Virus record (IMG/VR): IMGVR_UViG_3300047552_000971
Location: 1-32,697 of that record
Direction: 5' to 3' (one strand)
From: a virus
Length of the DNA stretch: 32,697 nt
A program made the translations under genes and the position numbers. The notes under the pieces were generated by a model that ran no database searches, had not been told where the DNA came from, and worked only from the letters and a program-made list of their open reading frames with translations. Shown piece after piece: positions 8,957 through 27,721 of this stretch (position 1 is its first letter; each line of letters begins with the position of its first letter).

Positions 8957-9013
8957 ATGAGCAAAAATAGCGAAAATAAGGTGGAAATGAAGGAAAGTAT
9001 AAGTAATGTTTAA
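8957..9013 (+). CDS. Possible 18-aa peptide upstream of the iteron gene
   Basis: A short frame (MSKNSENKVEMKESISNV) overlaps the start of the next gene by 8 bases and contains that gene's AAGGAAAG ribosome site. It may be a coupling leader or a chance frame. Confidence 0.2.
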   Translation: MSKNSENKVEMKESISNV

Positions 9014-9371
9014 GGATAAAGCAGCACAGCAGGCAGCAAACAGGGCAGCGCAGGCCAAGTTTAAGGCCAAACAGGGTATTACCAAGCAGCAGGGTATTAC
9101 CCAAAAGGTATTACCTAAACAGGGTATTACCGATGCAAAAGTAATACCCGATAGTAATACCCAGGTAATACCCGCAACAGGCTCTACAACCAATCCTAAC
9201 TTGCCGGCTAACTATGGCCTGGCCGATTGTCAGTGCCGGCACTGCTGTAATAACAGGCGAGCCGGCAGCAAGCATATCATTAACCATGCAGCCTACAAGC
9301 CAGCAGCAGAGCTATTGCCCAACGAGCTTAACCGTGTGAGCTTACCTGGTGATGTTGATTATGCCCTGTGA
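9006..9371 (+). CDS. Conserved phage protein (CxCxxC, NRVSLPGD motif) carrying the iteron array
   Basis: The 121-aa protein has an Ala/Gln/Lys-rich helix (residues 1-22), a low-complexity middle made of QGIT and VIP units (23-58), and a conserved C-terminal part with LADCQCRHCCNNRRAGSKHIINHAAYKPAAEL and NRVSLPGDVDYAL. I recognise the C-terminal part (D-C-x-C-x-H-C...I-N-H...Y-K-P-A-x-E-L...N-R-V-S-L-P-G-D) from small proteins just upstream of terminase genes in environmental phages. No small terminase is otherwise visible, so a packaging role is possible. The low-complexity middle is explained by the DNA repeats beneath it, not by protein needs. Confidence 0.65.
   Translation: MFKDKAAQQAANRAAQAKFKAKQGITKQQGITQKVLPKQGITDAKVIPDSNTQVIPATGSTTNPNLPANYGLADCQCRHCCNNRRAGSKHIINHAAYKPAAELLPNELNRVSLPGDVDYAL
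9074..9173 (+). repeat. Array of seven palindromic GGTATTACC iterons
   Basis: Four copies of (G)GGTATTACC (9074-9083, 9092-9102, 9107-9115, 9122-9131) are followed by three copies in the opposite orientation, [AG]GTAATACCC (9140-9149, 9153-9162, 9164-9173). Each 9-mer is an odd palindrome. Centre-to-centre spacing is 11-18 bases. The copies fall in two codon registers (GIT or SNT against VLP/VIP), so the DNA sequence seems to be what is conserved. Candidate terminase-binding/pac site or replication origin. Confidence 0.75.
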
Positions 9372-9480: not shown

Positions 9481-9494
9481 ATTGAAGGGTGCAG

Positions 9495-11357
9495 ATGAGT
9501 GAATTATCAGCTACAAGTAGGCGAAGGAAGTACTGTGTGGTCTGTAGCGGCAGTACTCACAGTAAGAACGGGTTGTGCAGGGATTGCTGGTATTTACTCA
9601 GAAGGTTAGAGGTTAAGGAGTTAGAGGAGTTCTGGAAGTATTCATTAGACAGGCAGAAGGAGATGATGGCTAAGTGGAAGCTGTCGAGGAAGCCTGGTGA
9701 GAAGAAGAAGAGAAGTGGCGGATTATCGAGCGACCCTGAAAAGCGTGCGAAGCAGTTAGCAAATTTATATCACCGCAGTACAAGTGCATTGGACAGTCAT
9801 TTGCCGATGGCGGTACAGAAGATAGCCAATGAGATGACAATAATAGAGTTTGCCGAGGCACATTTGGGGGTTGATTTTAGCAGGAGGCCTGCCCAGGAGG
9901 TTGTTTTAAGATGTATGTACGGTATGCCTTTGAGCAGCGAGACTGATGAGAAGATAATCAAGGCATATTCTGGGATTAAGAGGTATGGTCATCTAAAGAG
10001 TCAGATGGATATTTACAGGGAGATTACCGGCAATCAGGTGGAGTTTGAGGCGGGTATTGAGAAGGTAGAGGGTATTTGGGTAGTAGGTGCGAGGGGCGGC
10101 AAGAGTTTTATGACTTCTATTATAGCTTTGTATGAGGCTACGAGAGTTAAGTGGAAGAAATATCTTTCGGATGGTGAGACCGGCTATGCTGCGATTACAG
10201 CTACACGTCAGAAGCAGGCTGAGGACATTATACAGAAGGCCTGTGTAAGGATGCTGGAGGGCAGTAAGTTGAAGTCTATGATAGTTGATGCCATATCGTG
10301 TACTTTGAGACTTTCCAATGGAATGACGATTTCGAGTTTTCCGTGTAATAGTACGGCGGCGAGGGGTCTGCCGATTTTCATGCTTATTTTTGACGAGATA
10401 GCTTTTTACCGTTTGGAAGGCCCGAAGGCTGATGAGCAAATCTTTTCGGCTTTAAGGCCGAGAATGGCGCAGTTTCCAGGCGCTAAGTGCATTTTGATTT
10501 CTACTCCTGCTTCTGAGCAGGGTTTGTTCTGGGACTATTTTAACGAGGGTAAGCGTGTTTCCGGCAGACTTACTATAGAGGCTGATACCCAGTTAATGAA
10601 TCCTACGATAGAAAGTGCTTTCATAGAGAAGGAGTACAGGAGAGACGTTGATAATGCCAGGCGTGAGTTTGGTGCAAAGTTTGCCAAGCAGGTAAGTTCT
10701 TTCTTTCCAACTGATAAGGTCGAAAATTGTCTGGTTTTAGCTGGTGATTTGCCTTACGATGTCAAGTATCAGTACGCCGCCGGTATCGACCAGTCAGGTC
10801 TTTCCGGCAGGGACAGGTTCGCTTTCGCCATCGCTCACGGTGTACCAGGCATAGCAGGTGAAGTAAATCTCAGTTCCCGCAAGGTGGTTGACGTTTTGAG
10901 AAGCTGGGATACTACTGACGGCGATGAAATCCTTCACGATATAGGTTCTTTGACTGGTATGTACGGTATAAGGCACGTAATGATAGACAGGTACGCCTCC
11001 GGATGGGTAAGGGCTTCATTAGAGAAATTGGGTCTTGAAGTAGAGATAAGTCCTTCAATGACAGATATTTATACTAATATGAAGTCTCTGATGATAGCCG
11101 GTAAGCTGGAGTTACCAGACCATAGCGGCCTCAAGCAGGGTTTATTTCGGACTGCGGGTTATTTTTCGAAGGCCAACAATCTTACGATAGCTCACGAGAG
11201 GAGTTCTCAGGGACACGGGGACGAGGCTGACGCTGTAGGCAGGGCTATCTATGCAACTTCTCAGTTAATAGAGTTCAGTACGGACGATTCTCCCGATGCA
11301 GACGAGAAAGACAGAACGGAGAACGAATATACGACAAATATAGCTTTTGCAAGATAA
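9495..11357 (+). CDS. terL: Terminase large subunit with N-terminal zinc ribbon
   Basis: The 620-aa packaging motor starts at ATG 9495 (AAGGG five bases upstream; a GTG at 9489 has no spacing). Residues 14-31 form a CVVC...CRDC zinc ribbon, an unusual addition. The ATPase shows Walker A GARGGKS (about residue 198), Walker B LIFDE (about 297) and the coupling motif ILISTP (about 335). The nuclease domain shows the acidic triad in AAGIDQS (about 430), VMIDRY (about 497) and GHGDEADA (about 575), the RNase-H-like headful or cos nuclease. A basic linker (KPGEKKKR) follows the ribbon. No separate small subunit is recognised, so the ribbon or the upstream CxCxxC protein may recognise DNA. It packs DNA into the prohead through the portal. 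Confidence 0.95.
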   Translation: MSELSATSRRRKYCVVCSGSTHSKNGLCRDCWYLLRRLEVKELEEFWKYSLDRQKEMMAKWKLSRKPGEKKKRSGGLSSDPEKRAKQLANLYHRSTSALDSHLPMAVQKIANEMTIIEFAEAHLGVDFSRRPAQEVVLRCMYGMPLSSETDEKIIKAYSGIKRYGHLKSQMDIYREITGNQVEFEAGIEKVEGIWVVGARGGKSFMTSIIALYEATRVKWKKYLSDGETGYAAITATRQKQAEDIIQKACVRMLEGSKLKSMIVDAISCTLRLSNGMTISSFPCNSTAARGLPIFMLIFDEIAFYRLEGPKADEQIFSALRPRMAQFPGAKCILISTPASEQGLFWDYFNEGKRVSGRLTIEADTQLMNPTIESAFIEKEYRRDVDNARREFGAKFAKQVSSFFPTDKVENCLVLAGDLPYDVKYQYAAGIDQSGLSGRDRFAFAIAHGVPGIAGEVNLSSRKVVDVLRSWDTTDGDEILHDIGSLTGMYGIRHVMIDRYASGWVRASLEKLGLEVEISPSMTDIYTNMKSLMIAGKLELPDHSGLKQGLFRTAGYFSKANNLTIAHERSSQGHGDEADAVGRAIYATSQLIEFSTDDSPDADEKDRTENEYTTNIAFAR

Positions 11358-25589: not shown

Positions 25590-27721
25590 TGGCCTATCAG
25601 GATTTTACAACTTATACTGAAGTAGATGAAAATAACAAAATAACCGTAGATTCATCTACTAAAGTTTCTTGTGCCGAATTAGACAGGGACGAAACTTCAT
25701 ATTTGTATAAAGATTTCGGAGCAAACCATTTTTCCGGCGATTTCACCCATAAGTTTGAAATGTATATTAGTTCTGACACAACATCTACAGCAGCTTTTGC
25801 TACTTGGATGGTTAGTAAAATTGTCGGAGACGCTAAAGATGTAGAAGGGGCAAGTTCGGATTGTGCCAATGTTTTCGGATATAATCTTACCGGCTCTGCG
25901 AGAATATTTTTAAGATTAACACAAAATGGTTCAAATACGAGTGATAATGGTGTAGTTTCTTTTAACACATTATATTTTATAACTGTAACCAGAGATGACG
26001 ATGGCGGTGCTAATAACACTGGTCAATATGTAGCAAGAATCCGAACCGGAAGTCACACGGGTACACTGATAGACACATTAACATTAGATTCTTCTGCTGG
26101 TGAGCAGAACGATTTTCGATATTTATATTCAATGGCATCCTTTGACGATGACACTGCGACTGGTGCAAATTCTTATGGTTATAGTCAGAATCTTGATACA
26201 GGCGAAGCGTCACCAAGTGTATCTCCATCAATAAGTCCGAGTATCAGCCCGTCAATATCTCCGAGCATTTCGCCATCAGCAAGTCCATCGGCTTCAGCAA
26301 CGCCGAGTATATCTCCGTCTATATCGCCAAGTATTAGTCCTTCTGCTTCGCCGTCTATTTCGGCTACGCCGTCTATATCTCCAAGTTTAAGCCCAAGTAT
26401 ATCGCCGTCAGCTTCTCCAAGTGCAAGTGCTACTCCGTCAATTAGCCCTTCGGCATCTCCGAGCGTTTCGCCTTCCGCCTCACCTTCTGCTTCGGCAACA
26501 CCTTCAGTTAGTCCGTCAGTTTCGCCCAGTTTGTCGCCTTCAGCAAGCCCGTCTGTGTCTGCCACTCCGAGTATCTCGCCATCGGTATCGCCAAGTATTA
26601 GTCCGTCAGCTTCGCCTTCGGCAAGTGCTACACCATCAGTATCGCCGTCTTTATCGCCAAGCGTCAGCCCATCGGCCTCGCCATCGGCTTCGGCTACTCC
26701 GAGTATATCGCCGTCAATATCACCGTCTATTTCTCCTTCTGCGAGTCCATCTGCGAGTGCTACGCCTTCTGTTTCGCCGAGCATCAGCCCAAGTGCTTCC
26801 CCATCAGTAAGCCCTTCGGCCAGTGCTACACCGAGTGTATCGCCTTCGATAAGTCCATCTATATCGCCATCAGCAAGTCCATCAATTTCAGCGACTCCGA
26901 GTGTTAGCCCGTCTGTTAGCCCCAGTATCAGTCCTTCAGCTTCTCCGAGTGCTTCTACTACGCCATCCGTATCACCGAGTCTATCACCTTCGGCAAGTCC
27001 ATCGGTATCGGCAACGCCGAGTGCAACTCCGTCCGTAAGCCCAAGTTTAAGTCCATCGGCCTCGCCATCGGCAGGTGTATCTCCGTCAATATCTCCATCG
27101 TTAAGCCCATCAGTTTCGCCGTCAGCTTCGCCAAGTGTATCGCCAAGTGCTACTCCGTCTCCGCTAACTGATGCGGAGTTAGATAAAATAATTTCAGACC
27201 TTGAAGTGAGGGTATCAGATTTAGAGGTAGAGGTAAGTGATATGAACGCACAACTTATTTCAGATATAACCTATGTTATTAGTAAATTGCCCACGAATAA
27301 TATTATGGGCAGTAGTGATAAAGACAATCACGACACAACAATAGACACTATAGCCAGTGATTTGATTCTTGTTGATACGGTAGTAGATTCAATCAAGTCC
27401 GACCTAATAGTTACTGATACCATTGCAGACTCCATAAAGAGTGACTTAATAGTTACAGATACACAAGTCGATGCCATTAAATCAGACCTGACAACTGTTG
27501 ACGGGATAGCAGATACGATTAAGAGCGATTTGATAATTACAAACTCTGTTTGTGATACTATAGCTTCAGACCTTGTAATAGTTGCAAGTGATATAGTCGT
27601 AATTGAAGGCATGGAACGTACTCAGAATAATGACTGGGGCAGTGGTGGTTCAGGTGGTGGAGTGGATACAGGCGGTTCGAGTGGTGCAAATTCATTCAAT
27701 GTTACAGGAGGTAATTGTTAA
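25589..27721 (+). CDS. Lectin-like protein with mucin-like SPSx stalk and heptad coiled coil
   Basis: The 710-aa protein has three parts. Residues 1-205 are beta-rich and resemble LamG/concanavalin-like domains (VDSSTKVSCAELDRDETSYLYKDFG, FSGDFTHKFEMYIS, GQYVARIRTGSHTGTLID). Residues 207-522 are a nearly pure tetrapeptide array S-P-S-[I/V/A/L] with periodic SA-T-P steps, an extended Ser/Pro stalk with more than 150 hydroxyl residues. Residues 525-690 are heptads ending in S-D-L, including six 14-residue units (D-S-I-K-S-D-L-I-V-T-D-T-x-A), which suggest a trimeric coiled coil; the end is Gly-rich with a final Cys. I infer a virion surface fibre with a binding head. The stalk is a natural acceptor for O-glycosylation by the neighbouring enzymes. 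Ser codons vary (AGY/TCN), limiting DNA identity. Confidence 0.75.
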   Translation: MAYQDFTTYTEVDENNKITVDSSTKVSCAELDRDETSYLYKDFGANHFSGDFTHKFEMYISSDTTSTAAFATWMVSKIVGDAKDVEGASSDCANVFGYNLTGSARIFLRLTQNGSNTSDNGVVSFNTLYFITVTRDDDGGANNTGQYVARIRTGSHTGTLIDTLTLDSSAGEQNDFRYLYSMASFDDDTATGANSYGYSQNLDTGEASPSVSPSISPSISPSISPSISPSASPSASATPSISPSISPSISPSASPSISATPSISPSLSPSISPSASPSASATPSISPSASPSVSPSASPSASATPSVSPSVSPSLSPSASPSVSATPSISPSVSPSISPSASPSASATPSVSPSLSPSVSPSASPSASATPSISPSISPSISPSASPSASATPSVSPSISPSASPSVSPSASATPSVSPSISPSISPSASPSISATPSVSPSVSPSISPSASPSASTTPSVSPSLSPSASPSVSATPSATPSVSPSLSPSASPSAGVSPSISPSLSPSVSPSASPSVSPSATPSPLTDAELDKIISDLEVRVSDLEVEVSDMNAQLISDITYVISKLPTNNIMGSSDKDNHDTTIDTIASDLILVDTVVDSIKSDLIVTDTIADSIKSDLIVTDTQVDAIKSDLTTVDGIADTIKSDLIITNSVCDTIASDLVIVASDIVVIEGMERTQNNDWGSGGSGGGVDTGGSSGANSFNVTGGNC

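Follow-up and report, generated by a model that had tools for sequence, protein, structure and literature searches.

Arrays of a short DNA word in a family of phage packaging-module genes follow the N-terminal basic helix encoded by the same gene

The pac site of phage P1 has repeated hexamers. In SPP1, pac comprises direct repeats near terS, and the small terminase of SF6 binds DNA with little sequence preference (PMC4737164). Given this low preference in at least some small terminases, it is only partly settled how a phage selects DNA of its own for packaging. In lambdoid phages it is established that iterons within a gene are bound by the product of that gene (PMC7466680). Of the bZIP proteins, Pap1 contacts TTAC through NxxAQxxFR (PMC7261193) and AP-1 contacts the AP-1 half-site through NxxAAxxCR (PMC8450079). 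A phage ORF unrelated to those described here has been annotated as a bZIP-domain protein (PMC9025141); we found no description of phage bZIP-like packaging proteins in the literature.

The window investigated here is a stretch of 32,697 nucleotides from an uncultured virus. A sequence-only reading had reported an array of seven copies of a short word at 9074-9173, four forward and then three reversed, and both reading of the sequence and a pattern search confirm that it is real. The 8-mer core (GGTATTAC/GTAATACC) is exact in all seven copies. The 9-mer GGTATTACC is exact at 9075, 9093, 9107 and 9123 on the plus strand and, as its reverse complement, at 9164; the reverse copies at 9140 and 9153, AGTAATACC, have one mismatch to that reverse complement. 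Start-to-start distances between the 9-mers are 18, 14, 16, 17, 13 and 11, in line with the reported spacing of 11-18, and the codon readings had also been given correctly. Site 1 (R0 plus GGTATTAC, 9074-9082), site 2 (9092-9100) and site 4 (9122-9130) read GIT, and site 3 (9106-9114), in a shifted register, reads VLP, all on the plus strand; in the reverse orientation site 5 (9141-9149) and site 7 (9165-9173) read VIP and site 6 (9154-9162) SNT. It had been argued that selection on the protein could not explain the array. When the same protein was recoded synonymously using the codon usage of the phage, the 7-mer core occurred 1.2 times on average and at most 5 times (n = 5000), against seven observed, so that the encoded peptide cannot by itself account for the array. 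The best 8-mer cluster of the window has seven copies in 120 bp, compared with 3 in the remainder of the window and with two (40 times) or three (20 times) in 60 Markov-1 shuffled windows. Only the description of the iteron as palindromic proved incidental: homologous arrays have the non-palindromic words GGTATGAC, GGTATCAC and GGCGTTAC, which indicates that the site is directional.

The array lies within an ORF of 121 amino acids (9006-9371, plus strand) that consists of an N-terminal helix, a disordered stretch encoded by the array and a C-terminal part with cysteines and histidines, a layout shared by a family of 48 members. The basic helix KAAQQAANRAAQAKFKAK (codons 5-22, 9018-9071, plus strand) is the predicted recognition helix, based on covariation, a model of the helix and a bZIP signature. 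In the AF2 model, which has a pTM of 0.26 overall, residues 5-22 form a helix with a pLDDT of 83-91 and the array stretch is a low-confidence coil without structure. A Cys/His cluster (CQCRHC...H; 9228-9287, plus strand), where the model has a helix at residues 78-86, aligns with one in the relative L005 and is probably a zinc knuckle. In a profile search of the PDB, YidC was the sole match and no bZIP chain was found. The gene for the large terminase subunit, terL (9489-11357, plus strand; phrog_2, E 3e-25), starts around 120 bp downstream of the array ORF. An additional stretch resembling a zinc ribbon (CVVC...CRDC, 9489-9700), with a subthreshold match to DZR_2, is present at the N-terminus of its product. 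No TerS was recognised in the 32.7-kb fragment. Elsewhere in the window, at 26200-27000, S-P-[SA] repeats extend over a long stretch that probably encodes part of a structural protein and has a large false ORF on its opposite strand.

A protein search gave a single true relative, L005, which has the same ORF ends with GGTACTAC repeats. Further relatives were gathered by searching with L005, by alignment of the N-terminus, by a DNA pattern for YKDxxKQ[RK]EA and by four DNA words alone, resulting in 48 array ORFs in uncultured viral contigs; all members are uncultured. Tblastn against cultured phages found no relative of the window ORF, nor of the replication-type protein L243 discussed below, and a genome search gave one match (L044), on a 4-kb contig binned as Heimdallarchaeota. 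Another candidate, L006, was false, as it overlaps a restriction-enzyme-like gene on the opposite strand. Nearly all the array ORFs have their own array at the same place, though the word differs from phage to phage. The word is present at least three times in 42 of the 48, with essentially one word per ORF, and it clusters only once per genome. The words (GGTATTAC, GGTATGAC, GGTATCAC, GGCGTTAC, GGTATTCC and others) align as R-GG-YR-T-N-A-C, and there are three to seven sites, in either orientation, spaced mostly 11-24 bp apart without strict phasing. Across the 42 ORFs, 71 of 159 copies are in non-main registers or in reverse orientation, and a purine lies one base outside the word in 98-99% of copies, non-main registers included. 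The array acts at the DNA level. A repeat at the level of the protein, such as collagen-like GIT repeats, does account for many matches of the word scan, but these are mostly in a single register; the array ORF family is of mixed register as a whole, although some single members are not. In a sister family of HNH-nuclease-like proteins with a similar N-terminus no such arrays were seen. An ORF at the start of a contig (L426:12-200), where the helix is cut off, has both GGTATGAC and GGCGTTAC arrays, and a DNA-methyltransferase-like ORF contains a mixed-register GGTATTAC array (L057:1826-1881, reverse strand) with no similar helix before it.

By comparing the arrays with different parts of the gene cluster we found that the word follows the N-terminal helix of the ORF itself. 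With pairs sharing a C-terminus or TerS excluded, the helix predicted the word in 33 of 42 cases (p 0.0005); the nearest neighbour by C-terminus did so in 6 of 31 and that by TerS in 4 of 25. Two ORFs that share a C-terminus, L028 and L039, have different words, and where two array ORFs that differ in both helix and word flank one terL (L032, at 421 and 2533) each helix matches its own word. Among 37 non-redundant helix-word pairs, residue 15 tracks bases 3-4, with TA found with alanine (25/27), CG with arginine (9/9) and TT with tryptophan (z 14, p 0.0002), and residue 16 tracks base 6, with C found with threonine (4/4) and A with methionine (2/2; z 6.8, p 0.0002); when base 6 is T residue 16 is mostly valine or glutamine, and when it is G mostly lysine or alanine. 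In the same pairs base 6 shows no dependence on residue 15, nor do bases 3-4 on residue 16; residue 19 tracks both sets of bases, and helix positions 9-11 and 13 gave nothing at p<0.05 against the bases of the word. Met16 occurs in both L037 (GGTATAAC, Ala15) and L043 (GGCGTAAC, Arg15), the same residue 16 with a different residue 15, which suggests that the code is modular. ORFs found by the DNA word alone, in the GGTATTAC, GGCGTTAC, GGTATGAC and GGTATCAC groups, mostly conform to this pattern as well. Residues 17-19 are confounded in the GGCGTTAC class, where a copy falls within the helix codons (AGGCGTTAC = RRY).

Arrays of GGCGTTAC are also found in replication-type genes of other phages, following helices such as AERQRRHRER, KRQARYRER and RERVRKWRE. 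The association with Arg15 is present in eight of nine such proteins (the exception is L261), three of the eight being close relatives, and evidence from replication-type genes is limited to this one word. In L243, L264, L270, L275, L280, L281, L288 and L301, from otherwise unrelated phages, the array is right behind the basic helix. Replication-type genes of another kind (L342, L348, L365, L399 and L407; HTH_36 in some) have GGTATCAC or GGTATGAC repeats at ~22 and 33 bp without a basic helix, as in classical in-gene iterons.

Since the helix adjoins the array, co-inheritance inflates the association between them; what argues for something beyond it is confined to the orthogonal, residue-specific pattern and the unrelated replication-type proteins. 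Taken at the level of sequence, helix and sites change together, such that a recognition code is readable from them. As the word follows the helix of its own ORF, the protein probably binds its own gene, and we consider it highly likely that its N-terminal helix is what binds the sites; the sequence-only reading had named the 121-residue protein just as one of several candidates for binding assays.

The predicted recognition helix has features of a bZIP basic region. In the window the residues in the bZIP register are Asn12, Ala15, Gln16, Phe19 and Lys20. The signature NxxA[AQV]xx[SCF]R, with lysine for arginine, is present in a subset of the family only, other groups varying at the same positions. 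The window ORF has no leucine zipper (R-x9-L) and no heptads, the array stretch following on from residue 22, and amongst the 48 members Pfam bZIP models gave one match at E up to 0.5 (L040, bZIP_2, E 0.005), which is below the cut-off. Because there is no zipper we do not claim membership of the bZIP family, but rather that the helix probably reads DNA much as a bZIP basic region does; 20 residues would fit either an independent or a common origin. R-x9-L and heptads were seen only in a 44-residue phage ORF without an array, MPYKDKAKQREAVRNASRKFRAKMKNKIAELEAKLRAYEQGRAT (L181:12304-12435, minus strand), which, with its basic region, resembles a complete miniature bZIP.

Relatives keep the array in the neighbourhood of terL: all 46 evaluable array ORFs (two of the 48 records end too soon for the distance to be obtained) lie within 4 kb of it, with terL downstream within 4 kb in 43 and upstream within 400 bp in three. 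A terS was recognised upstream in 31 of the 48, within 450 bp in 30, and in many it overlaps the array ORF by a few bases or is within 30 bp. The array ORFs are thus in the terS/terL region, where a pac site would be looked for. Arrays that come after terL (the second copy of L032, L419 and L195) and gaps to terL of up to ~3.9 kb fit less well with a single pac site. In L225 and L056 genes with the motifs of LAGLIDADG-type homing endonucleases (GFFDGEGS and GIIDGEGC) replace terS just upstream of the array ORF.

We lean towards a combined explanation in which the product of the ORF would bind the clustered sites that lie inside the ORF itself. The short N-terminal basic helix would read each RGG-YR-TNAC site seated over TNAC, with residue 15 setting bases 3-4 and residue 16, together with residue 19, setting base 6. 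A single helix presumably reads as a monomer, site by site. Several copies of the protein on three to seven sites in both orientations would then assemble into a nucleoprotein cluster within the packaging module. Most likely this cluster would serve to mark the phage DNA as a packaging substrate, as pac does, and the variable C-terminal part may contact TerS or TerL from the same gene cluster. For pac-like recognition as the purpose of the array, taken by itself, the chances seem evenly balanced.

The sites could instead be operators: by binding within its own gene the protein would repress or adjust transcription of the terS-terL cluster. Protein and sites are encoded in cis, often directly after terS, in-gene operators would give autoregulation, and the fast change in specificity is like that of immunity-type repressors. 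However, the sites fall within coding sequence and not at a promoter ahead of it, there is one word cluster per genome, and three to seven irregularly spaced sites exceed the needs of an autoregulator, so that this seems unlikely.

Somewhat less likely still is that the array is a replication origin, a role that the sequence-only reading had also raised, and that the ORF protein binds it, as an initiator or otherwise, much as lambda O binds iterons inside the O gene. Such a role is supported by the replication-type genes, two of them with HTH_36 or DUF1376, in which a similar helix accompanies a GGCGTTAC array, and for those genes it is favoured. The array ORFs, however, sit in the packaging module and not beside replication genes; iterons of an origin would be expected in or beside an initiator or helicase gene, whereas all evaluable array ORFs are by terminase genes. 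The mixed orientation and irregular spacing are also unlike a phased origin, and the GC skew of the window, suggested as a check for an origin, merely tracks the strand of the genes. Thirteen longer records were read in pieces, and in three of them (L080, L124 and L056) there is a further non-coding array, with an unrelated word, just upstream of a gene for a wHTH protein and a DnaB-like helicase, and in two of the three, primase or SSB and Erf genes are nearby. These helicase-side arrays (L450:9664-9752, L457:11706-11814 and L459:3725-3800, with the words ATGGACA, GTGTGACA and TGCTAATG), with words specific to each phage, are probably replication origins. A separate array at the helicase gene makes an origin role for the terS-side array less likely, and packaging recognition would then be the best role for it.

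In a classical pac box TerS or TerL would bind the array directly. The position of the array between terS and terL and the SPP1 repeats would suit this, but the nearly identical TerS of L033 and L039 accompany different words (GGCGTTAC and GGTATGAC, respectively), while their TerL and portal also fall in one cluster with equal length, and unrelated TerS families (phrog_51 and phrog_606) share GGTATTAC. Together with the poor prediction of the word by the nearest TerS, the L033/L039 pair argues against TerS as the reader, and direct binding by either subunit is very improbable. The suggestion of a pac/terminase-binding site therefore holds as regards an array at the DNA level in the packaging module of relatives, and is not supported as regards recognition by the terminase, as the word does not follow TerS. 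A strong hairpin formed in the transcript by copies of opposite orientation, acting as an attenuator or a protein target, can be all but dismissed: the stretch in the window does fold strongly (-45.1 kcal/mol, z -5.9), but 9 of 12 relatives are not notably more structured than expected (z above -2), above all those with arrays in a single orientation, Rfam gave no match, and the occurrence of copies in both orientations suggests that the site is duplex DNA.

If the ORF protein does read its own sites for packaging, a separate and rapidly re-specified reader beside terS would be one possible answer to how a phage chooses its own DNA. More speculatively, and with rather more doubt than for the explanation above, tailed phages may carry a portable recognition cassette, a single bZIP-like basic helix with its own site array right behind it, whose exchange and change of specificity do not depend on TerS or TerL. 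Phages whose packaging machines are otherwise interchangeable would thereby recognise their own DNA alone, and replication proteins of other phages would make use of the same cassette. In the family one helix of 20 residues would embody a naturally occurring code of protein-DNA recognition, for which sequence alone supplies dozens of evolved pairs of protein and site, and the parallel with the eukaryotic bZIP code is close enough to test for an independent rise of the same contacts.

Compared with the pac sites of headful phages such as SPP1 (PMC4737164), the arrays are alike in being short repeats in the terS region that overlap coding DNA; there, however, the proposed reader is the small terminase subunit, whereas here a separate protein is predicted. 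As with lambda O and ori-lambda (PMC7466680), the sites that a phage protein binds, or here is predicted to bind, lie midway along the gene encoding it, where extra copies lengthen the protein. Lambda O differs in being encoded by a replication gene, in having another DNA-binding domain and in its iterons, which are nearly invariant between phages, while the array ORFs belong to the packaging module and have sites in both orientations, with a word that varies with a short basic helix. With the bZIP proteins (Pap1/Yap1 and AP-1) they share a lone basic helix and five base-contact positions in the same register (residues 12, 15, 16, 19 and 20). They differ in being phage-borne, in having no zipper and no palindromic dimer site, and in a longer site, with RGG-YR before TNAC. 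The likeness extends to particular pairs: NRAAQAKFK of the window accompanies TTAC, as in Pap1, and NxxAQxxF[KR] is found in the related GGTATTAC subgroup, while NRLAAKEYR of L040 accompanies TGAC, as the AA of the AP-1 type does.
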